59,265 nucleotides of DNA, from contig JAGCOB010000012.1 of assembly GCA_017645645.1 (NCBI GenBank), forward strand, positions 84,597-143,861, in the 5' to 3' direction. A model generated the notes under the pieces. That model had not been told where the DNA came from, ran no database searches, and saw only the letters and a list, made by a program, of their open reading frames with translations. Positions 6,962 through 46,444 of this stretch are shown here, one piece after another (the first letter of the stretch is position 1; every line of letters starts with the position of its first letter). A program made the translations under genes and the position numbers. The DNA comes from Prevotella sp. (lineage in GTDB: Bacteria; Bacteroidota; Bacteroidia; Bacteroidales; Bacteroidaceae).

Positions 6962-9397
6962 CTATTGAACGGATTGGATCATCATCGTACCCTCTTTCAT
7001 TCCATCGGAATGACACTTTAACTGGATATTCCCTGCATCATGATTGCTTTGTATCAGCACTTGTGCAAGACCATTGAAAGCAGGAATACGGAACTCCTTA
7101 CAGTCTTTGTCTTTGGGATGATCGGCACCCAGATAGGATGGATCACCATTGCCTACGCCAATGATACGTCCGTTACCCTCCAAATGGAACGTCAGCATCG
7201 GACAGGCATCAGGAACGATACGTCCTTTGGCATCTTGGATTTCTATGGTGACGACAGCCACATCCCTTCCGTCTGCAGTGATAGTCGGACGATTACTCTT
7301 GACGATGATCTTGTCGGCAGACTTCGTCGTCTCAATGGTCTCAGTGAGGATTGGTTTACCATTCTTATAGCCTACAGCCACGACTTTGCCTGGCTGATAG
7401 GTAGCCTTCCATTTCAAATGCCCGTTCTTTGGCATTGATTGTCGTCCGAGTTTCTTGCCATTGACTGTCAGTTCCACTTCGTCGCAGTTGCTGTAAGCCC
7501 ATAACTCTATCTCTTCACCTTCATGACCTTGCAGGTTCCAGTGAGGGAAGATATGCAGGGTAGGCTCTTCCGTCCACCATGACTTCAGATACCATGCTTC
7601 ATCTTTCCAGAAACCACAATAGTCAAGGATGCCGAATTCAGAGTCAGTGGCAGGATATTTCAGCGGGTTAGGCTCTCCACGATAGTCGAAACCTGTCCAA
7701 TAGAACACACCTGCAGCCCAGTCGTGGTCGGCATAGAACTGCCATCCGCGTTCAATGACATTCTCTACTCCAGGCTTGTCCCCCCTATTGATAGCGGTCA
7801 TTCTGCCTGGTTGGTCAGGACTATCGAAATAGACGCCTCTTGTTCCACAACCTGTCGTCTCCTCCGTTCCTACAATCTTCCATGTGGTATTCGCCTTCTT
7901 GCGATTCTCGACATCATTCTGTACGATATAGTTGAAGCCTACTACATCCAAACCTTTAATCAATTCCGTTCCTCCTGCATTGGCAATCGTAGAATGACGA
8001 GTAGGGTCTAATAGATGGGTATATTCTCGCATGGCAGCAGCAATACGGGTACCTTGAACGGTATTCTCAAGACCCCATTCCTCGTTGCCATCGCTCCAGA
8101 GAATGACAGACGGGTGATTGCGATCGCGCTTAATCATGTTCTCCAGCAGGCGCAGATGTTCTGTGTTGATACCTGTCAGTCGGTTTTCATCGATAACGAG
8201 GATGCCCTCGCGGTCACAGACATCCAGTTGAGCAGGTGTCATGGGGTTGTGGGAGGCACGATAGGCATTACAACCAAATGCCTTCAACTGATGGATGCGC
8301 CATTCCATCAGTGCTTCAGGAATAGCTGCACCAACGCCCGCATGGTCTTGGTGCATGTTCACACCTTTCAGTTTCAGGGGCTTCCCATTGAGGATGAATC
8401 CTTTGTCAGCATCAAATTCCACTTTACGGATTCCTGTTGGGGTGATATACTCATCAACCACCTTGTTGTTGACCAATACCCTGGTGACAACCTTATAAAG
8501 ATAAGGATCCTCAGGACACCATAGACGAGGCTCGAAGACAGTCATCAGTTGTTTGCACTTGAGTGTCTGCTTGCCTTTGAGTTCTAAAATCTCTCTGGCA
8601 GCAAAGTCTACATCCTTTCCTTCAGCATCAACCAGTTTCGTTGCGACAATACATGTCTGTGTCTCAAGGCTATTGTTGTGCACTTCTGTCTCTACAGTGA
8701 CAGAGGTTTTGAGAAAGTGGTCGTCGATATCGGTATAGACAAAGGTACCAAAGGGTGCCACATTGACAGCACCAGTCTTGATGAGCCATGCATCACGATA
8801 GATGCCTGCTCCCTCATAGAACCAGCCTTCTTCCAAAGTGGCATCGGCACGGACACAGATGAGGTTGTCGCCTCCATAGTTGACATATTCTGTTACGTCA
8901 TACACCTGGGTGGCATATCCGCTGGGCTCTGTACCCATATAAAAACCATTGAACCACACACGGGCATTGCGGAAAATACCATCAAACTGGATGAGAATCC
9001 TCTTGCCGAGGTCGTCATTGGCGATGGGGAGCATCTTACGATACCAGCCAATACTGGTCTCCGGATATTTATATCCAACGGTCTTATAACCATGCGAATG
9101 ACTGGCTTCTGGCGCATAGGGCAGGGTAGTCACCCAGTCATGAGGCACTCGCACTTCTTCCCATTGCGAGTCATCAAACTTCATGGCGTATGGTCCTTCG
9201 TTATGAATGGAGTTGGCTTTTGTCAGATAGTTAAAGTACTCCGTTCCACATCCGAAGTCCTTGGCAGGATCGGAAGCATTGCCGAAAGCAAATTTCCAGC
9301 CTTCATCCAGTCGGATGGTCTCTCTTACGTTCTGGGCATTCAGCGTAAGGACAGCCATCCATACACCTGCCAACGTCATCAGTTTTCTTATACTCAT
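6962..9397 (-). CDS. Secreted GH2 beta-galactosidase
   Basis: Glycoside hydrolase family 2, 811 residues, with a Sec signal peptide (residues 1 to about 22, ending LNAQ), so periplasmic or surface-exposed. Domain order: sugar-binding jelly roll (about 30-200, with WYRKML and WFNGF), immunoglobulin-like domain, and TIM barrel (about 310-600). In the barrel DGNEEWG holds the likely acid/base Glu and VGTEETT the likely nucleophile Glu. DUF4982-like and GH2 C-terminal beta domains follow. It probably releases terminal beta-galactosides from plant or host glycans; GH2 also includes glucuronidases and mannosidases, so the substrate is inferred. No SusC/SusD pair is adjacent. It lies 13 bp below the next small gene. 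Confidence 0.85.
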   Translation of the reverse strand: MSIRKLMTLAGVWMAVLTLNAQNVRETIRLDEGWKFAFGNASDPAKDFGCGTEYFNYLTKANSIHNEGPYAMKFDDSQWEEVRVPHDWVTTLPYAPEASHSHGYKTVGYKYPETSIGWYRKMLPIANDDLGKRILIQFDGIFRNARVWFNGFYMGTEPSGYATQVYDVTEYVNYGGDNLICVRADATLEEGWFYEGAGIYRDAWLIKTGAVNVAPFGTFVYTDIDDHFLKTSVTVETEVHNNSLETQTCIVATKLVDAEGKDVDFAAREILELKGKQTLKCKQLMTVFEPRLWCPEDPYLYKVVTRVLVNNKVVDEYITPTGIRKVEFDADKGFILNGKPLKLKGVNMHQDHAGVGAAIPEALMEWRIHQLKAFGCNAYRASHNPMTPAQLDVCDREGILVIDENRLTGINTEHLRLLENMIKRDRNHPSVILWSDGNEEWGLENTVQGTRIAAAMREYTHLLDPTRHSTIANAGGTELIKGLDVVGFNYIVQNDVENRKKANTTWKIVGTEETTGCGTRGVYFDSPDQPGRMTAINRGDKPGVENVIERGWQFYADHDWAAGVFYWTGFDYRGEPNPLKYPATDSEFGILDYCGFWKDEAWYLKSWWTEEPTLHIFPHWNLQGHEGEEIELWAYSNCDEVELTVNGKKLGRQSMPKNGHLKWKATYQPGKVVAVGYKNGKPILTETIETTKSADKIIVKSNRPTITADGRDVAVVTIEIQDAKGRIVPDACPMLTFHLEGNGRIIGVGNGDPSYLGADHPKDKDCKEFRIPAFNGLAQVLIQSNHDAGNIQLKCHSDGMKEGTMMIQSVQ

Positions 9398-9410
9398 CTT
9401 ATTGCAGTCA

Positions 9411-9947
9411 CTATTTCACTCTGAAGAACTCTATGAAATCTTTGTTGGAATCCACTATGAAATCTTTGTCACCTTTCAAAAACAGACTATTCGCCGTCAG
9501 TTTTGTGATGGTCACGTTGTAGCTGACAGACTTTTGATCTGCGAAACCTTTCTTAATTTCTTCCTCGACTTGGTTCTCTATCACTTTTTCAATGGACTCT
9601 TTTATTTCAGGAGACTCCTTGATGAGTGTAGCCATTTCACCTTTGTAGACCATATTCTCAATCCTTCCAGTTGCCTTTTGGGGATCAATATTGATGGTCA
9701 GTGTGTTGCCATTACGCTTGTAGGTACCAAGAATATCCATGACAAATTCGAAGGAACCGACTTCATCATCAATGGTTGCCAATGTCATCCTCAGAATCAT
9801 CTTATTACCTTGATGAAAGACAAGCCCCCAGGATGTTTTGTCACCATCCTTGTCAGTCTCAGGGTGAGTTGACCACGTTCCAATCAGACTCTGTGCATTC
9901 ACTCCCATACTTACAAGGAGGAACATAAAAAATAATACTTTCTTCAT
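9411..9947 (-). CDS. Small secreted protein, lipocalin-like, unknown function
   Basis: 178 residues with a clean signal peptide (MKKVLFFMFLLVSMGVNAQ). After cleavage it begins SLIGTWSTHPETDKDGDKTS, a pattern seen in lipocalin-like and DUF5004-type Bacteroidetes proteins (a GTW motif followed by a beta-rich body), but I cannot assign a family firmly. The middle third is charged and probably helical (about residues 100-135, many Glu and Lys). It is expressed from its own promoter and precedes the GH2 gene by 13 bp, so the two are probably co-transcribed. No function is inferred. Confidence 0.6.
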   Translation of the reverse strand: MKKVLFFMFLLVSMGVNAQSLIGTWSTHPETDKDGDKTSWGLVFHQGNKMILRMTLATIDDEVGSFEFVMDILGTYKRNGNTLTINIDPQKATGRIENMVYKGEMATLIKESPEIKESIEKVIENQVEEEIKKGFADQKSVSYNVTITKLTANSLFLKGDKDFIVDSNKDFIEFFRVK

Positions 9948-9979
9948 AGTTTTATCGTTTTATAAGTTGTTTCCGTTTG

Positions 9980-35487: not shown

Positions 35488-35494
35488 CAGAAAA

Positions 35495-35531
35495 GCAAAA
35501 GGCTTCCACCATTGGAAGCCTTTTGCTTTTT
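35495..35531. terminator. Bidirectional terminator after tRNA-Gln
   Basis: A 14-bp stem (GCAAAAGGCTTCCA paired with its complement, loop of four) with T-runs on both strands. It ends the tRNA transcript and also the convergent nine-gene operon, whose last stop is at 35546. Confidence 0.9.
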
Positions 35532-35545
35532 CCTTGTTTGTCCTT

Positions 35546-38110
35546 CTAAAAGCTGAATGCAATGACGTAGCGCATGCCCCATTTAGGACTAGTCGGTAAT
35601 TCGTTATAGTTCAAACGACGGACATACTCAACATGGAAGAATTTGAAGATGTTGTGGATACCAAGTACAATTTCAGCGTAAGGTCGGTGAGGATCCATAA
35701 CATAACAGCCGTCAGGGAAGTACATTAGCCGATGATTTCCTTGATTTTTTTCAAGGAAGGGATTGTTCTTATCGGTGAGTTTTCCCCAGAGCATACGGAA
35801 ACCGATATATTCGCGCCAGTGGAGTTTCTTCATAAAGGGAATCCGATTGAAGATCTTACCGTTCAAGTCCCACGATACCATGAGAGATGCAAAACGGTCG
35901 TTGAGGAACTCCATCGTATTGATGAGATTGAATGTCTCAGGAGCAATAATATACGACTGGTTGGCGGCAGGGTAAATCAACAGCGGATAAGGTACCTGGT
36001 TCCATTGGATTCCGCCCTTAAGGCTAACATCGAGTTTTCCCCAACTGCTGAGCCAGAAGCGTTTGTAGATATGTGCCTCTGTATAGTTATAGTTGTATTC
36101 GCCCTTTAATATTCCATTGAAACCTATGGTATGTGCGATACTGAAGACTGGGGCATCCAGATTAATGACACGGCGGCGCAGCTTATTGTTGATATAAGTC
36201 TCACCAGGTGCATAGCGTAATCGGCCAGTTACTTCTGTCGTATGGATAAAAAGCCCATTACCAGTCCGATGATATGTCGTGGGACGTGGATTGTCAAGTG
36301 TCTGGTAAGACATGTTGCCACAAGCTTCATTCTCTTCAAGTTTTCCGTTCAGGGTGGCTTTCAATCCCCAATCAGTTTCATATTCGAAAGTGACTTGATG
36401 ACGGTTATAAAGTACCATCTTATCGGTCTTTGCCCATTTGAGTGCCACCATGAAATTATCCTTATCAGTATCCATGAAACGGTCACCAGGCGACATGACA
36501 TCCCTGTTTATCTGGATGGTCATTGTACGACGCGGAAACTCGTGGGGGAGATACTTCTTGGGATTCAGCGAATAGGTAATCTCAGCCATATAATAGTTTT
36601 TCTTACTACCCCAGCCATGACCGTAGTAGCCACTGAGGAAGAAATGGCTGTTGAGGTTGGCTGTGGTCTTCAGACTTATTCGCGAACGCCATCCGTCAAC
36701 ATAGTTATGGGTGAGGATGGTATTGACAGGACAGATGTCGATGTAGTTTGGTGTACTGGTCTCTATGGAGTTCTCGAAGAGTGCTTTCAATGCGAAGATA
36801 ACATACTTCATGCCTTTCACATTCTCAATGCGCTTGACAAAACGGTCCATACCGCTTTCGCTCTTCGTCAGTTCCACCTGCCGATACTGTTGCCAGAAGT
36901 TATCGTCACGCATCTGGGCATCAGCTTCCGTTACCTCCTTTGCCATACCTTTGAAGAGCTTCTTGGGAATGGGGTCGAAGTTGTAATCCGTCAGACGGGT
37001 GATGCGTGTGACGGTGGCAGAACGCAGGAAACTGAGCAGTTTGAGATCGGTAGTCATATCATCTTTCGACAAAACCCATTGTCCGTCGGCCAGTTGTTTA
37101 TATTCCTGCAGTATCTGTACGTTCTCTACGAAGTTGACGTTCGACTGTTTGGGGATGGTCATTACACAACGACGGACATGGAGTGACGAGTCATTCAGGA
37201 TATACAGGTCCCCCCGGAATCCCATGTCGTTCTGGTTGTTGGGCAGGAAATGGAGATGAATGCACGAGTCACGCTCAATTTTCAGTGTGTCTTCGATGTA
37301 ATAACGGTAGAAGCCGATACCTTCATTAGAGATAGGTGATATGAAGGGATATTGCAGCAGACGGATGTGGTCCTGATAGAGGTCGATATCCGTGAAGACA
37401 TCTTTCATGACGGTATTAATGATATCGCCCGTCTGAAACAGGTCGTTGACGCCCTTCGACATCTGTCCCATAATGATGGTCTTCTCCGACTTAGGATAAC
37501 GGCGATAGATTTTCTGTGATACCGTCTCGTCAACACTGACGGGAAGGATGTTCTTGCCAGTAACGTTGCTCACCTCTACCTGTTCCAATAGCCAGGGATG
37601 TTTCTTGAAAGGGTTTTGCTCCAGTTGTTCTGGTTTCAAGTCGTTGAGTGAGAGCGTGATTTTCTCGTATTTGTTATATTGATAGTAGTCGTTCAGGCTG
37701 AGGTCAGTCTGTTTCTTGGCAGCCACTACACGGCGCATCAGCTCTACAGCAGGATTGTTCTTGCGACTGTATCGGCTACGCTTGGCCTTAACCGTCACTT
37801 CCCCCAGCATCTGCTTGTCGGGTTGTAACTTGATGTTCAGATGGGCTTTCGTCTTTTTATTGACAGCTACGATGCGTGATTTGTATCCTACAGCACTGAA
37901 TGTGATGTTCCACCCCTCATGGCGGGCAATGGTATACTTTCCATTGACTGTGGAAATAGCAGCCACCTGATGCCCTTTATACACTACACTGGCCATCGGT
38001 ATGCTGTCGCCTGTCTCGGCATCTGTCACAATACCAGTAATCTGCTGGGCATTAATATGTTGTGCCAGCAAACAGAACAGGAAGACTACAATTGCAGTAG
38101 AAAATCTCAT
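35546..38110 (-). CDS. Large outer-membrane protein, DUF5686/carboxypeptidase-like
   Basis: 854 residues from the ATG at 38110, which gives a clean signal peptide (MRFSTAIVVFLFCLLAQHINAQ). A GTG at 38149 overlapping the previous stop would add 13 residues before it and is less likely. Residues about 23-100 are a CarboxypepD_reg-like domain (GIVTDAETGDSIPMASVVYKG split across 25-45). DUF5686 follows and then a long C-terminal barrel ending in Phe (YVIAFSF). Last gene of the lipid-type operon. It is a candidate outer-membrane port or assembly factor for the pathway's product. Confidence 0.8.
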   Translation of the reverse strand: MRFSTAIVVFLFCLLAQHINAQQITGIVTDAETGDSIPMASVVYKGHQVAAISTVNGKYTIARHEGWNITFSAVGYKSRIVAVNKKTKAHLNIKLQPDKQMLGEVTVKAKRSRYSRKNNPAVELMRRVVAAKKQTDLSLNDYYQYNKYEKITLSLNDLKPEQLEQNPFKKHPWLLEQVEVSNVTGKNILPVSVDETVSQKIYRRYPKSEKTIIMGQMSKGVNDLFQTGDIINTVMKDVFTDIDLYQDHIRLLQYPFISPISNEGIGFYRYYIEDTLKIERDSCIHLHFLPNNQNDMGFRGDLYILNDSSLHVRRCVMTIPKQSNVNFVENVQILQEYKQLADGQWVLSKDDMTTDLKLLSFLRSATVTRITRLTDYNFDPIPKKLFKGMAKEVTEADAQMRDDNFWQQYRQVELTKSESGMDRFVKRIENVKGMKYVIFALKALFENSIETSTPNYIDICPVNTILTHNYVDGWRSRISLKTTANLNSHFFLSGYYGHGWGSKKNYYMAEITYSLNPKKYLPHEFPRRTMTIQINRDVMSPGDRFMDTDKDNFMVALKWAKTDKMVLYNRHQVTFEYETDWGLKATLNGKLEENEACGNMSYQTLDNPRPTTYHRTGNGLFIHTTEVTGRLRYAPGETYINNKLRRRVINLDAPVFSIAHTIGFNGILKGEYNYNYTEAHIYKRFWLSSWGKLDVSLKGGIQWNQVPYPLLIYPAANQSYIIAPETFNLINTMEFLNDRFASLMVSWDLNGKIFNRIPFMKKLHWREYIGFRMLWGKLTDKNNPFLEKNQGNHRLMYFPDGCYVMDPHRPYAEIVLGIHNIFKFFHVEYVRRLNYNELPTSPKWGMRYVIAFSF

Positions 38111-38145
38111 ATCTGTTGATGTGCCTATCTGATGTCTTTCGCTCC

Positions 38146-38640
38146 TCACTTAAAAAGATATTCTGTATAACTGTTATTACGTCCGTTCATGCGAAGACGC
38201 TTCATGGCTGACGACCTGCTGTCGATGACGAGCACGAACGAGGTGAACATCTGACGTTTCTTGCCCGTTGGAGTGATGGTAACGGTCTGCTCATTCCCCG
38301 TCGTTGTTACCTTGATATCATTACCCGTAGGGATGGGCTGTTGGTTGATAACGGCTTTCAGCACAGCGTGGAAGTCGGCGAACAACGCATTCTTACGACT
38401 GTCAGTAACATGTTTCTTACCTTTTTGTGTCATGGTAAACTGCGTACCATTCATCAGCAACTGATCACGACCGCCATCCGTCGAAATACAGATGTAGTCG
38501 GGTTTCTTGATGGTTACCTCACCTGTCGTCACAACATCGGTCTTAACAGCCTTACTATGAGAAACCTTGGTAACAGGTTGCTGGGCATTGGCATAGCATG
38601 CCAGCATAAAGAATATTACAATTAGAAATCTTGTTTTCAT
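38146..38640 (-). CDS. LolA-like periplasmic lipid carrier
   Basis: 164 residues with a signal peptide (ending YANAQ). The body fits the LolA/LolB-like fold of carriers in aryl-polyene-type clusters: VTTGEVTIKKPDYICIS, LLMNGTQFTMTQKGKKH, and a C-terminal strand LVIDSRSSAMKRLRM. It would ferry a hydrophobic product across the periplasm from the MMPL exporter to the outer-membrane protein encoded next. It is separate from any housekeeping LolA. It lies 36 bp after fabG across a heptamer array. Confidence 0.7.
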   Translation of the reverse strand: MKTRFLIVIFFMLACYANAQQPVTKVSHSKAVKTDVVTTGEVTIKKPDYICISTDGGRDQLLMNGTQFTMTQKGKKHVTDSRKNALFADFHAVLKAVINQQPIPTGNDIKVTTTGNEQTVTITPTGKKRQMFTSFVLVIDSRSSAMKRLRMNGRNNSYTEYLFK

Positions 38641-38661
38641 AATCTTAACTATTATCTCTTC

Positions 38662-38682
38662 ACTATAAACTATGAACTATGT
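38662..38682 (-). repeat. Heptamer tandem array at the fabG stop codon
   Basis: Three units (plus-strand ACTATAA, ACTATGA, ACTATGT) spanning the fabG stop and the gap to the LolA-like gene. Confidence 0.65.
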
Positions 38683-39399
38683 ATATAGTCCTCCATTGAT
38701 GGATACTACATTTCCTGTGATATAGCCGGCATTAGGCGATACCAGGAAAGCCACCAGGTCGGCTACTTCCTCTGGCGTACCAAAACGATTGGCAGGAATC
38801 GTTTTCTTCAGTGCAGCTTCGTCAAGTCCCTCTGTCATATCGGTTTTGATAAAACCAGGGGCTATGGCATTGACAGTAATGCCTCGGCGAGCAACCTCTT
38901 GTGCCAATGCTTTTGTTGCAGCAATAATACCACCCTTTGCAGCAGAATAGTTCGTCTGTCCGGGCAGTCCTTTCAGTCCACTGACACTCGCCATGTTGAC
39001 GATGCGCCCGAACTTGTGCAACTGCATGGCTGGCAGCAGGGGCTGGGTGACATTATAGAAGCCGGAGAGTGTGATGTCAAGTACACGGTGCCAGTCATCT
39101 TCAGGCATCAGTGCCATCACATTATCGCGACGAATACCTGCATTATTGACCACCACTTCTATATAATCCTCAGGATGACGGCTTTGCCAATCGCTGAGAG
39201 CAGTACGTGTCTGTTCGGCATTGCTGACGTCGAAACGCAATATCTCTCCTTTGTTACCTGTCATCTCCAATGTATTCTGTGCCTCAACTTCGTTGCTGGC
39301 ATAGTTAATGATAACTTGATAACCCTCCTGGGCCAGTTTGATGCAGATGGCTCGTCCGATACCTCGGCTACCACCTGTTACTAATGCATATTTACTCAT
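38677..39399 (-). CDS. fabG: 3-oxoacyl-ACP reductase (FabG-like)
   Basis: 240 residues, short-chain dehydrogenase. TGGSRGIG (NADPH site, residues 8-15), NNAG (about 86), catalytic Ser in NMASVSG and YSAAKGG with Tyr and Lys (about 150-155) are intact. It reduces beta-ketoacyl-ACP to the hydroxy form. Its placement among a ketosynthase, ACP and dehydratase suggests a pathway-dedicated copy. The start overlaps the FAD oxidoreductase stop by 4 bp. Confidence 0.9.
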   Translation of the reverse strand: MSKYALVTGGSRGIGRAICIKLAQEGYQVIINYASNEVEAQNTLEMTGNKGEILRFDVSNAEQTRTALSDWQSRHPEDYIEVVVNNAGIRRDNVMALMPEDDWHRVLDITLSGFYNVTQPLLPAMQLHKFGRIVNMASVSGLKGLPGQTNYSAAKGGIIAATKALAQEVARRGITVNAIAPGFIKTDMTEGLDEAALKKTIPANRFGTPEEVADLVAFLVSPNAGYITGNVVSINGGLYT

Positions 39400-40805
39400 A
39401 CTTTGTAGTTCTTGATAGTGTCTAATGTGTTAAATGCAGTCCTTGTCACGCCCTCCAGTCCATGCAGTACCAGACTTTGGCCTGTCAGGAAGAGGTTTGG
39501 AATCGGTGTCTTGGGCGATAATATCGTCAGTAAAGGCTGGCGATAGTCTTTCCTGATACCAAAAGCCGAACCGCAGGGTGACAGCGTATAGTCACGCCAG
39601 GTCAACGGCGTACTGATATATCTTTTCTCAATCATGTCATGTAGCCCAGGTATAACCCTTTCAGCCAAACGTATACATTCATCGGCAAGATGCTCCTTGT
39701 GCAATTCGTAAATCTCACCACGACGACCGACCTTCGTGTCTTCCCACGTTTTAAAAAGTGTCCATGGCATGGGTGTCAACAGGTCTATCTGCCTTGCGTA
39801 GTTACCTGTTTCAGGAACTCTGCAACTGATCATCACGCCTCCAGTCCCGCTAACATCCTCATAAAAGCTCCATACATTGGCTTTCTTGTATACATATTTG
39901 TTGTGATTGAAATAAAGCAGTGTATCAGGTTTCAATACCAGCGATGCCGTAAATACGCCAAAGGTATTCTCCAAGGAATTGATGCGGCGGCGGAAGATAC
40001 CCTTTAGCAGGGATGATTCCTTGACCCAACTGAACGTCAATTGTGGATGAACGTCACTGATGAAGATAGTTCCTTCGTATGTTTTTCCATGAGAACTTTC
40101 TGCTGCAACAATCTTTCCGTCCTGCTCTTTCAGCTCCATGACCTCTGCATGACAGACGATCTCTCCGCCGAAGTCTTTGATATCTTTTATCAGCGAGTTG
40201 ACGATCAGGTTACCACTGCCTTTCAGTCGCCAACTGCTCTGGATATAACTGCTCATGCTGTGGGCAAAGTTGAACAGGGGCAATGACTCGCGCCTCAGTT
40301 CCATCTTCATGGCTGTACCGGAAAGTACGTTGATAAGAAGCGGGTCGTGGAAGAGTGACTTCAGATAATTGTAGGCACCTACCTGACTGATCTCCTCCAT
40401 GGGGGGCAGGTGCTCAAGCATCTTTACATACTGTCTCAAACCAACCTTCTCATGGGGAAAGTATTCTCCCAGCGTGGCAGCGAAATGGTCGAATCCTTCT
40501 GTCAACGGGAAAGTCTGCCTGCCGATGGTGATCTGGTCGAAACCATTGACATCCAGTCTATGCCAGGGTAACCCCATCAGTCCCAACTGCTGAAAGGCAT
40601 CGTGCAATGGCTGACCTTCTGCCAAACCACCCACATAGTGCAGTCCTGTGTCAAAATCCGCGTTGTCACGACGGTAGCTCTGCAGACAACCTCCAGGCTG
40701 TGCCTGCCGTTCCAGTACCAGCACACTCCTTCCAGACTGTGCCAACTGTCGGGCACATATCAGTCCTCCCAGTCCACTACCTATTATGACAACATCATAT
40801 TTCAT
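39396..40805 (-). CDS. FAD-dependent oxidoreductase (phytoene desaturase/RetSat-like)
   Basis: 469 residues. The N-terminal Rossmann motif is VVIIGSGLGGLICARQLAQ, followed by VLERQAQPGGCLQSY and DTGLHYVGG. The C-terminal FAD-closing motif is LFLTGQSLVLHGLEGVTRTA split over about 440-460. This is the CrtI/RetSat superfamily, which saturates or desaturates long conjugated lipids. Reading the pathway, it could reduce or introduce double bonds in the ACP-bound chain or the finished polyene. It is not a standard member of aryl-polyene clusters as I know them. Overlaps both neighbours by 4 bp. Confidence 0.8.
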   Translation of the reverse strand: MKYDVVIIGSGLGGLICARQLAQSGRSVLVLERQAQPGGCLQSYRRDNADFDTGLHYVGGLAEGQPLHDAFQQLGLMGLPWHRLDVNGFDQITIGRQTFPLTEGFDHFAATLGEYFPHEKVGLRQYVKMLEHLPPMEEISQVGAYNYLKSLFHDPLLINVLSGTAMKMELRRESLPLFNFAHSMSSYIQSSWRLKGSGNLIVNSLIKDIKDFGGEIVCHAEVMELKEQDGKIVAAESSHGKTYEGTIFISDVHPQLTFSWVKESSLLKGIFRRRINSLENTFGVFTASLVLKPDTLLYFNHNKYVYKKANVWSFYEDVSGTGGVMISCRVPETGNYARQIDLLTPMPWTLFKTWEDTKVGRRGEIYELHKEHLADECIRLAERVIPGLHDMIEKRYISTPLTWRDYTLSPCGSAFGIRKDYRQPLLTILSPKTPIPNLFLTGQSLVLHGLEGVTRTAFNTLDTIKNYKV

Positions 40806-43252
40806 TTCTTATGTTGGTTGAGCCATCTGAATACAGCAGGTTGTAAGACGTATGCCAGTATGACGGCAGACAACAGTCCTACAAGCGTAGAGAATCCGAC
40901 ACTGCGGATAGCAGGATGAGTAGCAAGGAGCATGCTGCTGACTGTGGTGAGCAGGGTAACGGCACTCAGCAAAATAGCCGTCTTATGATATTGTAATTTG
41001 TTATCTTTGTCTGAAATCAGCCCGTTCATCACAAAGATACTATAATCGACTCCAATACCAAAGATAAACGTGGAGATGATGATGCTGATGAGATTAAACC
41101 TCACGTCGAACAGTACCATGGCACCTAGCACGATAAGCCAACTGATCAGGATGGGCATGAAGCCGAGTAACGTATGCTTCAAGTTAAAATGGAAGCTCAA
41201 AAGCAATACTACAAATACGAACAGCATAGAGAGCCATTGCAGTACGTTGAAGTCGTCGTTCATCTGCAATAGCGTGTCCGTAGTATAATAATAGGTGTCA
41301 AGCACCAATAAGTTCGGATTGCTGGCAATGGCATCGCAGATACGGATATAGTCACTGTCGCTACTACGCACGGAGTCATTGGCACAGCGCACAGAAGTAA
41401 AACAGAGATAGTCGCCGCCATACGACTGCTCCATCAACGTTGACTGGTAGCCCTCAGGAATCAGTCCTGCGGCATAGAGCGAGTCTGGCTCATAGTCGTT
41501 AGTAGCCGTCGTGAAGAAAGTATCAAAGGCCTCTGCATTGAGGTCGGCCTGCGGTGCTGTCTGGGCTATCAGTGTGCGTACCTTTGCCAAACGGTCCTGA
41601 GACCAGAAATCCGTCCATGCCTGAATACGTTCCTGCTGAACACGCATGGGTACGAATATCTGGTTGGTGCGTGTATAACTCTTCACCAGTCCCAGTTGCT
41701 GCATGGAGTCCAGTTTATGGTCGAGGATGGCAAAATTTTCTACCGCCTCTTCCATTGTCTTACCCTGACTGGCAAAATACTTGGTCTTGTCACCTGTATA
41801 GGTCTTCTTCCTAAGCAATTGCTCAGAGTATTCCGTCATATCATCCAGATAGCCCAGGTTATGCATATCGGCATCGAAGCGGATGCCACCTACAAAGTAA
41901 GCTCCCACGCCAATGACAACAGCCAAGAGTACGACAGCCAGCAAAGGCTTCTTCTGATCGAAAGGATAGCTATTGATGCGGTCGAGCCACTTAAAAGATG
42001 CTGGATTAACCTTGCTGCTGAGCATCTGAGGCAGATAGGTCAGCGAGAAGAGGGTTGTACCAAGAATGGCGAAAGCGGCAAACAGTCCGAAGTCTTGCAA
42101 GAGAGCCGTATTGATGAAAATTAGTCCTGCAAAGGACCCAATGGTAGTAATGCATCCCAACAGCACAGGTTTTACCTGGTCACGCAACATCTTTTCTCCA
42201 TCTCCTACATACTGGTGATGGGTTAGGATGTGGAGCACATAGCTCAGTGCCACTCCCAATACGACACCGCCAATACCTAAGGCCAATAGTGAGAACTCGC
42301 CCTTCAGCCAGTACATCATCGACAGTCCGAATAACGTACCGAAAACGACAGGGAGCAACAGCAAGGGAATGGTATCCCATCTGCGGAAACAGAATAGCAG
42401 GAACACCAGTACCAGCACCAGTGCCCCTGTGATGGTCGTCGTCAGATCATGTTTGATCTGTGTCGAGTTGTAATAGCCACTGGCGGGTGTACCGTGATAG
42501 GTAATACGTACATTGGGATGAGTAGTGGCAAACTGGCTAATCAGTTTGTTTAGCTGTTCAAAGAGTGCAGAGCCCTGTCCTGTATTCGTTGATGAGAAAC
42601 GGGGAGTTATAAAGGCAATGCACACGGTAGAGTCAGGCACGAAGAAATGGTTGTCAATGGTCTGGTAACTGCCTGCACTCAACAGGGAAGTCATCTGTTC
42701 CACCAGAACATTGCGCATACCCATGGGATCCATCTCTATCAAATCCGGGAACATTTCTCCCACTTCACTGAGCAAGTCTTCGTGGTTTTGCTGCATCTGT
42801 TGGATGAAATGTTCGCGAGTCAGCAAGGAGTCGAATCGGGTGTATGCCGTTGTGTCAATATAGGCAGGAAGGTGGTTACTTAGATAATCGACAGCATCAG
42901 GTAGCAAGTCTTCGTCCAAACGATAAAAGATGTTACCGATGACGGAGTCTTTGTCTGTTGCCAGCAAGGAGTCCACGAAAGCATCACAGGTCTCATGGAG
43001 CATGCTCGTTCCTGCCTCTCCAGTATCTTCGAATAACAGGAATGTCTTGTCCTTGATCTTCAGGTCGGCAAAGGCCAGTTTAGTAGTGCCGTCTTCATTT
43101 TTCGATGACGGCATCAGTTTGTTGATGTCCTCCTCAAGGTGTATCTGTGCGGCAAAATAGCCAAAGAAGGCAAAAAGGACAACCATCGACAGCCAGCAGA
43201 CCAGTCGATGGTTACGGAAATAATGATAGATATGAATGAAGTAGTTTGTCAT
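40802..43252 (-). CDS. MMPL/RND-family lipid exporter
   Basis: 816 residues with the duplicated RND layout: helix 1 near residues 17-35, a large periplasmic loop, a five-helix bundle (about 270-400), helix at about 430-450, a second loop, and a second bundle (about 665-810). GVDYSIFVMNGL near residue 740 carries the Asp typical of proton relay in MMPL proteins. Such proteins export lipids and polyenes. No membrane-fusion or TolC partner is adjacent; the LolA-like and outer-membrane proteins of the operon may replace them. Confidence 0.85.
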   Translation of the reverse strand: MTNYFIHIYHYFRNHRLVCWLSMVVLFAFFGYFAAQIHLEEDINKLMPSSKNEDGTTKLAFADLKIKDKTFLLFEDTGEAGTSMLHETCDAFVDSLLATDKDSVIGNIFYRLDEDLLPDAVDYLSNHLPAYIDTTAYTRFDSLLTREHFIQQMQQNHEDLLSEVGEMFPDLIEMDPMGMRNVLVEQMTSLLSAGSYQTIDNHFFVPDSTVCIAFITPRFSSTNTGQGSALFEQLNKLISQFATTHPNVRITYHGTPASGYYNSTQIKHDLTTTITGALVLVLVFLLFCFRRWDTIPLLLLPVVFGTLFGLSMMYWLKGEFSLLALGIGGVVLGVALSYVLHILTHHQYVGDGEKMLRDQVKPVLLGCITTIGSFAGLIFINTALLQDFGLFAAFAILGTTLFSLTYLPQMLSSKVNPASFKWLDRINSYPFDQKKPLLAVVLLAVVIGVGAYFVGGIRFDADMHNLGYLDDMTEYSEQLLRKKTYTGDKTKYFASQGKTMEEAVENFAILDHKLDSMQQLGLVKSYTRTNQIFVPMRVQQERIQAWTDFWSQDRLAKVRTLIAQTAPQADLNAEAFDTFFTTATNDYEPDSLYAAGLIPEGYQSTLMEQSYGGDYLCFTSVRCANDSVRSSDSDYIRICDAIASNPNLLVLDTYYYTTDTLLQMNDDFNVLQWLSMLFVFVVLLLSFHFNLKHTLLGFMPILISWLIVLGAMVLFDVRFNLISIIISTFIFGIGVDYSIFVMNGLISDKDNKLQYHKTAILLSAVTLLTTVSSMLLATHPAIRSVGFSTLVGLLSAVILAYVLQPAVFRWLNQHKK

Positions 43253-43674
43253 TGCTGCATAAATATCTTAAGTTGAGCCTTGGCTATCAGTTCCTCACCG
43301 ATACGACTCTCGCCTGTAGCTATTGTCACATTCCCGAAGACAAATCCAAATTCAATGGTCGTTTCCACCTTTTCATCCTGACGGGGGCGCCTCTGACATT
43401 CGAAGCGCTTTACTTCACCAATGAGCCCTACAGGCGGATGATCCGTCTGTTGCTCTATAGCCGTACTACCCATCAATGCCGAACACGACTGGGCAATATG
43501 CTCTATCAGTCCTGTTTCCGACATGGTGCCGTCAGGCAACATAAAATAATTATCTGTACGAGCGGTAAGGTTAGTAACGGCATGGGTGCCGTCACTAACC
43601 TCTATCTCGTCCACCATGATAAATGGTTCACGCTGGGGTATCAGTCGCTTGATGTCTTCGTCCCGATACTTCAT
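43249..43674 (-). CDS. Hotdog-fold 3-hydroxyacyl-ACP dehydratase-like protein
   Basis: 141 residues. FabZ/ApeP-like hotdog: LIPQREPFIMVDEIEVSDG at the start, then SETGLIEHIAQSCSALMG, with the central-helix Glu that serves as catalyst in this group. The canonical GHFP His motif of housekeeping FabZ is absent; the equivalent stretch reads NYFMLPDG. This is the form seen in polyene and secondary-lipid clusters. It overlaps the ACP gene and the MMPL gene by 4 bp each. Confidence 0.8.
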   Translation of the reverse strand: MKYRDEDIKRLIPQREPFIMVDEIEVSDGTHAVTNLTARTDNYFMLPDGTMSETGLIEHIAQSCSALMGSTAIEQQTDHPPVGLIGEVKRFECQRRPRQDEKVETTIEFGFVFGNVTIATGESRIGEELIAKAQLKIFMQQ

Positions 43675-43916
43675 GCAGGAATATTCTGCTCAATGTAGTC
43701 GTACAGGTCGTTGAACGACTGGATCTTGTGCAACTCTGCCACGGGGATGGTTACCTTGTAATTCACCTGCAACAAAGCCACCATATCTACCAGACTCAGA
43801 CTGTCGAGGCTCAATGTTTCCTTGATGTTTGCCTCTGGGGTGATGTCACTAACTTCTACTTCAAACTCGTTGGCGAGCAGTTCGTTAACCTGCTCAATAA
43901 TCTCACTTCTTGTCAT
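43671..43916 (-). CDS. Acyl carrier protein
   Basis: 81 residues. The phosphopantetheine attachment Ser is in LSLDSLSLVDMVAL (DSL motif, near residue 38). Helical acidic fold, with VNELLANEFEVEVSDITPEANI at the N-terminal side. It differs from housekeeping AcpP and is a dedicated carrier of the operon. It follows the ketosynthase by 13 bp. Confidence 0.88.
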   Translation of the reverse strand: MTRSEIIEQVNELLANEFEVEVSDITPEANIKETLSLDSLSLVDMVALLQVNYKVTIPVAELHKIQSFNDLYDYIEQNIPA

Positions 43917-43929
43917 TGTTGTTTTGTTT

Positions 43930-45150
43930 TTATAAGTTTTTTACGATTAATGTCGAATTGGTTCCTCCGAAACCGAAGGAGTTGCTCAGGAACTGGTCGA
44001 AATGTATTTCTTTGGTTTCTCCTAATACATTGATGCAGCTTGTCTCTTCGTCAGGGTTCTCGAAGTTCACATTTCCTGCGATAAAGCCGTTCTTCATCAT
44101 CAGCATTGAATAGATGATTTCCGAGGCTCCTGCCATCCACATCTCGTGACCAGTCTGACTCTTGGTTGATGTCACAGGCACCTTATAGTCGCCAAAAGCC
44201 TGAGCAATAGCCATAGCCTCGCGGGCATCACCAATCTTAGTCGAGGTGGCGTGGGCATTCACATAGCCGATGTCTCGCGGATTGACATTCGCATCTTTCA
44301 GACAGAGTTCCAGTGAACGGGCCGGTCCAGCTACATTAGGTGTTGAGATATGGTCGCCATTTCCAGAGAATCCCCAACCGACGATTTCAGCCAAGATGGG
44401 GGCACCACGACGTACGGCACTCTCATAGCTTTCAAGAATCACTGTTGCAGCGCCACCACCAGGAACCAATCCATTGCGGTCGCGGTCGAAAGGACGACTG
44501 GCCTTTGTGGCGTCATTGTCATCACGCAAGGCAAATGACTGAATGCCGTCAAACGAAGCCACACCATACATATTGGCCTCCTGAGCACCACCGCAGACAA
44601 CACACTCCTGCAATCCATTGCGGATGAGCAGCGTCCCCAGTCCGATAGACTGCGAACCACTGGCACATGCTGCTGAGGCTGTCAGGTTGATACCCTTCAG
44701 ATGGAACAGACAGGCGAGGTTCATCGTCACTGTCGAGTTCATCGACTGGAAGATGGCACCACTTCCGCAGGCAGCTGTTGAACCGGCATTGCGGAATTTG
44801 TCGAGTGCTATCATTGTAGCTTCAGCTACGGAGTCGTTGCCATAGATGATGCCTACCTCATGCTGGTCGATATAATCCATATCCAGACGGGCAGCCTCTA
44901 AGGCATCTTTTGTCGCCATATAGGCATACTGTGCCTCCTCGGGCATGAATTGTCGCTGGTTACGGCCGATAAACGGTTTCAAGTCTGGACGTGGAACGTT
45001 AGCGGTAAACGGTGAGCGGAATCCGGCATCTACACGTTCCTGACTCAACACAATTCCACTCTTTCCATCGTACAGGGACTGGCGTACCTCTTCAAGGGTT
45101 GTTCCCAGACACGACCAGATTCCCATTCCTGTAATAACTACTCTTTGCAT
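43930..45150 (-). CDS. Beta-ketoacyl-ACP synthase (KAS II type)
   Basis: 406 residues from the ATG at 45150 (MQRVVITGMG); a TTG four codons upstream is rejected. The catalytic triad is intact: Cys162 in SAACASGSQSIG, His in YVNAHATST (about 298) and His in KSQTGHEMWMAGA (about 333). It condenses malonyl-ACP onto the growing chain. Only one ketosynthase is present; aryl-polyene and flexirubin pathways as usually described also carry a chain-length-factor partner, so this one may act as a homodimer. It starts 8 bp after the GNAT gene. Confidence 0.9.
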   Translation of the reverse strand: MQRVVITGMGIWSCLGTTLEEVRQSLYDGKSGIVLSQERVDAGFRSPFTANVPRPDLKPFIGRNQRQFMPEEAQYAYMATKDALEAARLDMDYIDQHEVGIIYGNDSVAEATMIALDKFRNAGSTAACGSGAIFQSMNSTVTMNLACLFHLKGINLTASAACASGSQSIGLGTLLIRNGLQECVVCGGAQEANMYGVASFDGIQSFALRDDNDATKASRPFDRDRNGLVPGGGAATVILESYESAVRRGAPILAEIVGWGFSGNGDHISTPNVAGPARSLELCLKDANVNPRDIGYVNAHATSTKIGDAREAMAIAQAFGDYKVPVTSTKSQTGHEMWMAGASEIIYSMLMMKNGFIAGNVNFENPDEETSCINVLGETKEIHFDQFLSNSFGFGGTNSTLIVKNL

Positions 45151-45178
45151 ATCAATTGTCAATTATTAATTATCAGTT
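45151..45178 (-). repeat. Heptamer tandem array between the GNAT and ketosynthase genes
   Basis: Four units (plus-strand ATCAATT, GTCAATT, ATTAATT, ATCAGTT). The array encodes the last five residues and stop of the GNAT protein and runs up to the ketosynthase ATG. Confidence 0.8.
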
Positions 45179-46304
45179 TCTTAAAGCACCTGCGGCGTTT
45201 TACAATTTCCGGGTTCAGCGGTTTCCATTGTGACAGTTCACGCACATTGTCTTCCAGTTGCGGACCTGTTTCTGCCCAGCGGAATCCGTATCTATTATAG
45301 ATGGGTATCAGATCTTCAAAGAAAAGTGCATTCACACCATATCCCTGCAGGTCTGGACGCACGGCGATGAGTAGCATCTCTGCATTGTCCTCATGCTTCC
45401 ATTTCAGTGCTTTCAACAGATGATACCATCCTAAAGGCCACAAGCTGCCATTTGCCTTACGTATCGCCTTTGACAGACTTCCCATGGTGATAGCCACGCC
45501 CACCACCTCATTCTTGTTGTCAACAATCACAGGAACTAACTGCTTGTCAATCACAGGCAAGTATTTGTTCAGGAAGTGGTCGATCTGCTCGTCAGACAAT
45601 TTTGAGAATCCAAACAAAGGCATATAGGCTTCATTCAACAAATTGAATACCTTTTTACCATAGCCCTGACGATAAATCATGTCATTCGTTAACTTAATGA
45701 CCCGCAGTTCCATCTGTTCCCTGCAGTATTGAGCCACTCGCTGATAAAGTGCAGGAATCTGCTCCGGTACCTTGATACGTATCTGTACCCAGTCCACTTC
45801 CTTCTCCAATCCTAATGCTTCCATATGGTGTGGATAATAGTCGGGGTTATAGATGGTGTTGATAGAGCCCGTCAGGTGGAAGTCCTCAACGAGCATTCCC
45901 TCTTTGTCGAAGTCTGTGATGCCTAATGGCCCGTGTAGCGTGTCCATACCTTGTGCAATACCCCATTGGCTGACAGCATCAATCAGGGCACGGGATACTT
46001 CAATGTCGTCAACAAATTCTATCATCGAGAAACGAACATTCTTATTTCCCCAACACTTATTGGCCTTGTTGTTGACGATACCCACAATACGACCGACAGG
46101 CTTTTCGTGTTGATAGGCAACGAAGGGCTGTATGACAGAAAACTTCATGCCAGGGTTTTTCTGTGGGTCGAAAAGGCTACGTACGTCGCTGTCCAAGTCT
46201 GGCACATACTGTTCCAGATGGCTGTATATGGATTTCGGTACATTGATAAAGTCCTTCAGATGGCGCTTGGTTTGTACCTTTATGACATCTATATTTTTAC
46301 TCAT
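45159..46304 (-). CDS. GNAT-fold acyltransferase-like protein
   Basis: 381 residues, no signal peptide. This is a large GNAT-fold family common in Bacteroidetes: VGRIVGIVNNKANKCWG, MDTLHGPLGITDFDKEGMLV split across about 122-141, and near the C-terminus LLIAVRPDLQGYGVNALFFE, where a degenerate acyl-CoA loop (RPDLQGYGVN) is visible. Members are often annotated simply as N-acetyltransferase; some GNAT-like proteins of this size are bacterial ceramide synthases, so N-acylation of an amine is a reasonable guess. First gene of the operon. Its -7 box is at 46322-46329. Confidence 0.65.
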   Translation of the reverse strand: MSKNIDVIKVQTKRHLKDFINVPKSIYSHLEQYVPDLDSDVRSLFDPQKNPGMKFSVIQPFVAYQHEKPVGRIVGIVNNKANKCWGNKNVRFSMIEFVDDIEVSRALIDAVSQWGIAQGMDTLHGPLGITDFDKEGMLVEDFHLTGSINTIYNPDYYPHHMEALGLEKEVDWVQIRIKVPEQIPALYQRVAQYCREQMELRVIKLTNDMIYRQGYGKKVFNLLNEAYMPLFGFSKLSDEQIDHFLNKYLPVIDKQLVPVIVDNKNEVVGVAITMGSLSKAIRKANGSLWPLGWYHLLKALKWKHEDNAEMLLIAVRPDLQGYGVNALFFEDLIPIYNRYGFRWAETGPQLEDNVRELSQWKPLNPEIVKRRRCFKKLIINN

Positions 46305-46321: not shown

Positions 46322-46444
46322 CAAAATTACACATTTTTTATATAAAACGGGCACACTTTCTTCACAAATAATGTTCTTTACCACAGAAAGTGTATAAAAA
46401 CCTTGGCAAAAATACACAAAAATGATGAGAAATCTTTATATTTG
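46322..46444. promoter_or_regulatory. Divergent -7 elements of the lipid operon and the PheC-like gene
   Basis: Minus-strand TAATTTTG at 46329-46322 lies 17 bp before the operon's first ATG. Plus-strand TATATTTG at 46437-46444 lies 29 bp before the PheC-like ATG. Neither has a clear -33 TTTG at 19-20 bases, which may mean activator dependence. Confidence 0.55.

Follow-up and report, generated by a model that had tools for sequence, protein, structure and literature searches.

The 59 kb stretch of DNA from a rumen-type Prevotella sp. analysed here (hereafter the window; source assembly G000, 2.09 Mb, 64% complete) contains an operon of nine intact genes on the minus strand (46304 to 35546), each beginning with ATG, which we read as a self-standing type II synthase with its own export line. 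A lone ketosynthase (KS) of the type of ApeR, from aryl polyene (APE) biosynthesis, would make a short, probably non-aryl chain, a GNAT protein would N-acylate an amine, and an MMPL exporter, a LolA-like carrier and a DUF5686 protein would deliver the product. We hold this reading to be about evenly poised between right and wrong. The preliminary description of the window had proposed a reduced aryl-polyene or flexirubin-like pathway with export genes of its own, and this is supported by matches to ApeR, ApeQ, ApeF and ApeP and by the absence of a pair of KS and chain-length factor (CLF). Operons of the window's type are called type A below, full APE-type clusters type B, and the ApeR-type KS of the latter KS1.

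Identity and phylogeny of the ketosynthase

In the comparison with E. coli pigment-cluster proteins, the window KS (43930..45150, 406 amino acids (aa) from the ATG at 45150; PF00109/PF02801) matched ApeR best (36% identity and 205 bits, vs 122 bits for ApeO) and kept the Cys-His-His triad. The best matches of three other products were ApeQ for the FabG-type ketoreductase (38677..39399, 240 aa, 49% identity), ApeF for the acyl carrier protein (ACP; 43671..43916, 81 aa, PF00550, with a DSL site) and ApeP for the hotdog protein (43249..43674, 141 aa). ApeR was also the best blastp match of all 89 type A KSs (at least 65% identity) and of all 22 KS1s; for the 34 additional KSs of full clusters the best match was ApeO without exception.

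The KS tree comprised 79 KSs, including 19 of the 90 type A rows. Type A formed one side of a branch with 100/100 support and was nested, by forks starred in the tree, among KS1s from other Bacteroidales families. The preliminary description had left its reading to depend on where the KS would fall; it fell in the ApeR-type clade (100/100), from which the housekeeping FabF of its own genome was excluded. The term single-ketosynthase operon, used in that description, stands as to the number and can be refined as to kind, the KS being of the ApeR type, published as extending chains without a CLF. In vitro, ApeR is a homodimer, active without a CLF, whose polyenes have at most four double bonds (PMC8358021).

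The KS did not group with FabF, as that of a housekeeping type II fatty acid synthase (FAS) would. Spare housekeeping genes (FabF, FabG and FabZ isozymes) with chance neighbours could have been suspected because the KS and FabG belong to a FAS-like superfamily and because the NCBIfam FabB/FabF models came top for the KS, below their cut-off. The separation from FabF in the tree, the dedicated ACP, exporter and carrier, and the retention of the unit across genera amid changing flanks (see below) make this explanation very improbable.

Conservation of the gene set in Bacteroidales

A scan of genome contigs with the window KS gave 182 relatives, the best 80 of which were taken; in 69 of them the operon lies clear of the locus ends (uncut). 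These 80 relatives were mostly Prevotella, with Phocaeicola, Bacteroides, Parabacteroides and Paraprevotella, and the nearest named loci were from Prevotella or Prevotellaceae, chiefly ruminant-associated. Among the 69 uncut operons, KS and ACP were always present, followed by GNAT and the flavin adenine dinucleotide (FAD) enzyme (65 each), the hotdog protein (64), MMPL (51), FabG and LolA (50 each), DUF5686 (40) and a second, ApeI-like hotdog protein (22). The gene order, which the preliminary description had singled out for comparison across Bacteroidales, proved to be that of a conserved unit, with the exact order of the window in 16 of the 80 relatives.

The flanks differed from locus to locus. 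Within the flanks available for 97 loci, the tRNA-Gln, RsfS, FtsH and CdsA genes that adjoin the window operon were near the operon in one locus and its other flank genes nowhere; among 300 pairs of 25 loci, neighbours were shared 39 times upstream and eight times downstream. A conserved set in differing flanks indicates that the genes travel as a unit, and chance neighbourhood is excluded on the same ground. The ratio of nonsynonymous to synonymous substitutions (dN/dS) vs relatives was 0.03-0.12 where it could be computed, with one LolA comparison at 0.27; these figures cover the operon without the KS, and many distant pairs were saturated. We found no published account of this gene set in the literature searched, subscription papers being mostly outside its reach.

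Two loci had a different first gene: in the divergent KS-ACP loci L043 (6561-7874) and L046 (8034-9491), with KSs of 68-77% identity, a PlsC-like acyltransferase leads instead of GNAT, an assignment tested at family level on the L043 protein. In another (genome G007, contig C40; L049 6097-7298) the type A KS is split in two, through decay or misassembly.

Stand-alone operons and full clusters

The preliminary description had considered that the starter and CLF genes might lie elsewhere in the genome, as a split aryl-polyene cluster. In stand-alone carriers they were not found by searches for further KSs, for PF13723 (the ApeC-type CLF family, to which E. coli ApeC belongs) and for PF00221 (aromatic ammonia-lyase, the flexirubin FlxA type), and a split cluster is thus unsupported. 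The window's own genome, at 64% completeness, contained the window KS and FabF as its only KSs, and no PF13723. Sixteen of 119 genomes of the genus that are at least 95% complete carried a type A KS (at least 76% identity), and five of these (G373, G207, G121, G167 and G390) had just two KS matches, the other being FabF; GNAT adjoined the KS in all five. Two KSs only were also found in three named strains, Prevotella sp. tf2-5 (the same as G207, one of the five), Paraprevotella xylaniphila YIT 11841 and Parabacteroides bouchesdurhonensis. None of the 10 stand-alone genomes searched contained PF13723, and all three genomes searched that have a full cluster did. PF00221 was detected in one of nine genomes, that of P. 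faecium (G441), beside the full-cluster KS, and was absent from the window's own genome and seven others, among them G035 with its full cluster. What makes a non-aryl starter likely for the type A KS is the lack of starter genes, and not the residue at the Tyr135 position discussed below.

ApeR-type KSs occur in two settings, type A operons and full clusters. The type B clusters of Prevotella and other Bacteroidales, as seen in L071 and L052, comprise FabG (FlxB-type) with KS1, a methyltransferase, an ACP, a lipid-A-type acyltransferase, ApeP- and ApeI-like hotdog proteins, a thioesterase, ApeO-like KSs (two in L071), a half-size PF13723 protein like ApeC, GT2, LolA2, MMPL and CrtI-like FAD enzymes. 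Type A shares with them the ApeR-type KS, the FlxB-type FabG, hotdog protein, LolA2-like and MMPL export genes and the CrtI-like enzyme, and has none of the ApeO-like KSs, PF13723 protein, methyltransferase, lipid-A-type acyltransferase or GT2. Both extra full-size KSs of full clusters keep the triad and match ApeO best, the CLF being the half-size PF13723 protein. L071 (G024), with two ApeO-like KSs besides KS1 and the half-size CLF, exceeds the E. coli cluster by one KS.

We took a count of at least four KSs as a proxy for a full cluster, not every one of which was inspected; 34 of 72 carriers reached it, and the other 38 had at most three, some of these assemblies being incomplete. The count leaves out G040 and G056 (where the KS has a different setting or abuts the end of its contig), takes repeated genomes once, includes 50 of the 66 further loci and mixes protein searches with PF00109. 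Since the type A clade is nested among KS1s, of whose 22 loci 19 show another KS within the same stretch, one could imagine type A as an accessory module of a full aryl-polyene cluster that boosts or tailors its pigment, as ApeR boosts ApeO-ApeC. The 34 genomes with at least four KSs, and the losses of FabG and the hotdog protein that accompany such genomes, would suit this idea; the 38 carriers with at most three KS matches do not, nor do the five of 16 near-complete carriers and the three named strains that have FabF only besides and no CLF. We judge the accessory role improbable.

Loss of FabG and hotdog genes alongside full clusters

Type A operons often drop their own FabG and hotdog genes where a full cluster is present, an association that is newly seen here. 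Of 25 genomes with at least four KSs, 15 had no FabG in the operon, compared with 1 of 34 genomes below that count (Fisher, 1e-6). This test, like those for ApeI, MMPL, LolA, the FAD enzyme and GNAT, was made on 60 loci, excluding for each gene the loci that are cut at the 3' end and lack it, and ignores kinship. The sole exception, G468, has another FlxB on a contig that bears a second KS, and in four FabG-less genomes with a full cluster (G450, G451, G459 and G491) the only FlxB over the cut-off adjoins the full-cluster KS. FabG loss was not one inherited event, because the FabG label changes 11 times on the KS tree, at least nine of these changes being forced. The label for full cluster or operon alone changes 14 times (11 forced).

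Hotdog-less operons all came from genomes with at least four KSs (11/11, vs 23/61 of the hotdog-bearing; p 9.5e-5, kinship ignored), and the association was weaker on the 60-locus set (p 0.011). The hotdog label changes three times on the tree in one set (two forced); with more rows it changes twice when compared with ApeI-bearing rows only, and by eye the 11 hotdog-less rows fall in five places, some by weak forks. In the 16 near-complete carriers, at least four of which (tf2-5, L079, L112 and L118) overlap the other sets, the five stand-alone operons all keep both genes, and of the 11 with at least four KSs nine lack FabG and seven the hotdog gene (p 0.005 and 0.029); at least four KSs were thus present in 7/7 hotdog-less vs 4/9 hotdog-bearing genomes. 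MMPL, LolA, FAD enzyme and GNAT showed no significant bias (p 0.63, 0.50, 0.08 and 0.18). Most simply read, these losses mean that type A depends on a ketoreductase and a dehydratase of APE type, both of which can be supplied in trans; judging from gene distribution, the full aryl-polyene cluster seems to supply them. The loss of ApeI, which shows no such bias (see below), speaks against this reading.

Export genes, acyltransferase and flavoenzyme

The MMPL/RND-type inner-membrane exporter (40802..43252, 816 aa, PF03176) is HpnN-like and has 22% identity to ApeM. The LolA2-like periplasmic carrier (38146..38640, 164 aa, with an N-terminal signal-like segment) matched NF053544 LolA2_flexi at 5.2e-13 with 48.8 bits, below the cut-off of 125; its family profile matched the PDB LolA-family protein 8t5j at 0.0027, and blastp gave no match to E. 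coli ApeL. A role for MMPL and LolA homologues in bringing APE and flexirubin to the outer membrane has been proposed (PMC8253772, PMC11885536), and the LolA2 and LolB2 genes are reported as lying always within flexirubin-type loci (PMC11885536). LolB2 is not among the nine window genes (no genome-wide search was made), and DUF5686 takes the last place.

The DUF5686 protein (35546..38110) consists of a CarboxypepD_reg domain, a middle beta domain and a C-terminal barrel. In the predicted model, residues 454-853 form a 16-strand barrel of the Omp85 type, as in the C-terminal part of Omp85 proteins. As to POTRA domains, the N-terminal parts were barely probed by the fold search, and CarboxypepD_reg was seen there instead. 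DUF5686 is on this model a possible further Omp85 branch in Bacteroidota and may act as a lipid acceptor at the outer membrane. A LolA/LolB-like middle domain, suggested by about ten long strands of the model, was unsupported by profile comparison.

The first gene (45159..46304) encodes a GNAT protein of 381 aa with a predicted tandem-GNAT fold, that is, with the two domains of tandem GNAT N-acyltransferases. Mycothiol synthase and Clostridium glucosamine N-acetyltransferase belong to the same fold class, with 10-13% identity to the window protein. An identity as Bacteroidales ceramide synthase was among the candidates considered (for the setting of the GNAT paralogue, see below). The CrtI/carotenoid-isomerase-like FAD enzyme (39396..40805, 469 aa) has a conserved dinucleotide-binding motif; the window sequence alone matched phytoene dehydrogenase (4dgk) at 1e-9, and the family profile gave no solved relatives at 1e-20.

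Proposed pathway and alternatives

On our reading, the KS would take its starter from the cellular acyl-ACP pool, not an aryl acid, and would add one to about four C2 units, each reduced by FabG. Dehydration would be performed by an ApeP-ApeI pair where ApeI is kept; in the window's clade, since no ApeI is found there, it would be performed by the FabZ of an LpxC-FabZ fusion or not at all, and the chain leaving this step would be either conjugated or of the 3-hydroxy kind. Its isomerisation, saturation or desaturation would fall to the CrtI-like flavoenzyme, and the tandem GNAT would release it from the ACP by transfer to an amine. MMPL would then pull the lipid out of the inner membrane and the LolA-like carrier would ferry it to the outer membrane, where the Omp85-type barrel of DUF5686 would receive or insert it.

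Several observations, given in this and the two following paragraphs, weigh against this pathway. Its product, amine and cargo are putative, and the substrate of the GNAT cannot be told from its fold. An AMP-ligase (ApeH-type aryl activation) is absent from the nine genes, and a genome-wide AMP-ligase search was not made. Of the 69 uncut operons, 18 have no MMPL gene next to the KS and 19 no LolA gene there. In the KS tree, E. coli ApeR enters the KS clade with weak support (94/28) and, because of long branches, the exact places of the two E. coli rows and of FabF are unsure. ApeR is reported to have been needed for initiation in one in vitro study, and apeR of E. coli is dispensable for the pigment (PMC8253772). 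Tyr135 and Phe202 of ApeR stack against the aryl head (PMC8358021). All 89 type A KSs have Ile at the Tyr135 position and retain Phe202 and the triad; the Tyr135 position is also Ile or Val in all 22 KS1s, which come from mostly full Bacteroidales clusters, so that Ile there is no proof of a non-aryl starter.

Other such points concern dehydration. The window hotdog protein has the Glu of the FabZ site and lacks the catalytic His of FabZ and ApeI, as do 14 displayed members without ApeI; in relatives with ApeI, the His sits in the second hotdog protein, of about 120 aa with an HFPG motif. Of the ApeI-ApeP dehydratase pair, the window operon has the ApeP-like protein alone. No ApeI-like protein was found in the window's own genome (64% complete) or in its close relatives tf2-5, G025, G444, G445 and G447, which gave only short matches inside frames of 461-477 aa; we take these frames to be the LpxC-FabZ fusion. 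That the window's clade has a hotdog protein without the catalytic His and has also lost its ApeI-like partner is likewise newly seen. Unlike the losses of FabG and the hotdog gene, that of ApeI showed no bias with respect to full clusters, being missing in 15/24 genomes with one and 22/32 without (p 0.78). A conjugated polyene is therefore not secure for the window operon, and we infer two live product classes, a conjugated and a 3-hydroxy chain. If condensation and ketoreduction were the only steps without ApeI, no polyene would be formed, the product in the window's clade would be a 3-hydroxyacyl amide lipid and the hotdog protein a binding or scaffolding relic, one that is still under purifying selection (dN/dS 0.07-0.10 vs relatives). 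We regard this as unlikely, if well worth considering: relatives with the same core keep ApeI (22/69), a CrtI-like flavoenzyme of polyene type is present in 65/69, and hotdog-less operons were seen only where a full cluster could dehydrate, a circumstance that should make no difference if dehydration were unused.

Lastly, genes for a thioesterase, a CDP-alcohol phosphotransferase and an LPG-synthase-TM flippase accompany 18, 11 and 6 of the 69 uncut operons, respectively, and would fit a phospholipid-linked product. The chain would in that case be esterified to a glycerophospholipid, not an amine, and the GNAT would act elsewhere or tailor the head group. The phosphotransferase and the flippase occur together in 5 of 14 further loci, and the divergent loci L043 and L046 begin with a PlsC-like acyltransferase; none of the accompanying genes lies beside the window operon, and GNAT is present in 65/69. 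We find this esterified product rather improbable. The accompanying genes were recorded in L119 (14553-17049), L134, L142, L165, L167, L169, L172 and L174 and are a hint at a phospholipid-type head group.

To return to the synthase and export line with an N-acylated amine, its fullest form would be a separate, undescribed class of surface lipids in gut and rumen Bacteroidales: short non-aryl polyenoyl or hydroxyacyl amides, made by the lone ApeR-type KS and the tandem GNAT, passed by an MMPL-LolA relay to the DUF5686 barrel and sharing reductase and dehydratase with the aryl-polyene pathway where both are present. We consider this wider claim doubtful.

Comparison with known pathways

With APE biosynthesis of E. 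coli CFT073, Xenorhabdus doucetiae and Acinetobacter, type A shares the ApeR-type KS, the ApeQ-type ketoreductase, the ApeF-like ACP, the ApeP-like hotdog protein, the MMPL and LolA-like export genes and, in some relatives, ApeI. The ApeO-ApeC KS-CLF, the ApeH ligase, the second ACP, the methyltransferase, the ApeD acyltransferase and the ApeJ glycosyltransferase are absent from the operon, which adds GNAT, the CrtI-like FAD enzyme and DUF5686. Since KS-CLF and a starter enzyme were looked for and not found, type A is not to be classed among the aryl-polyene clusters; as far as its sequences tell, its action resembles that of the early, short-chain half of such a cluster.

Alterochromides presumably join an aryl starter to a peptide, and the type A operon has no nonribosomal peptide synthetase. 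Their clusters lack KS-CLF, and the making of the short polyene has been attributed to homodimeric KSs (PMC8358021). With the flexirubin clusters of Chitinophaga pinensis and Flavobacterium johnsoniae, type A has in common an FlxB-type reductase (NF053542, 397 bits in the window, above the cut-off of 340), a LolA2-like carrier (below the cut-off) and an exporter; the tyrosine ammonia-lyase, 4-coumarate ligase and several KSs of flexirubin clusters (PMC3992019) are lacking in type A. The FlxB equivalog model also passes its cut-off on type A reductases of strains without a full cluster, two of them named strains without another polyene KS, so that the name flexirubin may be over-applied in gut Bacteroidales.

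The type A set is common to many gut Bacteroidales, and its product is worth looking for. We presume that antiSMASH labels type A as aryl polyene. If some aryl-polyene calls are indeed of the reduced type, another chemical search is needed for those. In a rumen survey, aryl polyenes made up 2,800 of 14,814 cluster calls, among the commonest, and of the 17 clusters with differential expression, which included aryl-polyene clusters of Prevotella, 16 were higher in less feed-efficient steers (PMC8241843). Type A is also a clean test bed for the action of an ApeR-type KS without a CLF partner, and the operon gives DUF5686 a context, that of a predicted Omp85-type barrel adjoining a lipid carrier.

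Operon layout and further observations

In operon order, the gaps between genes are 8, 13, -4, -4, -4, -4, 36 and 35 bp, and the coordinates bear out the co-directional set of nine genes, six of whose eight junctions are below 15 bp, that had been described preliminarily. The terminator noted there at the operon end corresponds to a 19-pair hairpin (35490..35531) that separates the operon from the convergent tRNA-Gln. Ahead of the GNAT start, by 17 bp, lies TAATTTTG (46322..46329, minus strand), which matches the Bacteroidota -7 element, whose consensus we take to be TAnnTTTG. Longer frames for the KS (TTG 45162) and DUF5686 (GTG 38149) are less likely starts. The G+C content of the operon is 0.472, vs 0.476 for the window.

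A tandem-GNAT paralogue of about 382 aa, with 41-46% identity to the window GNAT, is widespread in Prevotella and occurs on contigs C22 and C26 of the window's own genome. In all six loci examined (L153-L158, from G116, G010, G172, G388, G119 and G120) it adjoins a type II topoisomerase B-like subunit and a C-terminal processing protease, by names read from sequence. In L073, the KS, ACP, hotdog, MMPL, FAD, FabG and LolA proteins are 93-100% identical to those of the window and the GNAT (8835-9974) 73%, a divergence amid near-identical neighbours that points to recombination inside the operon and a mosaic structure.

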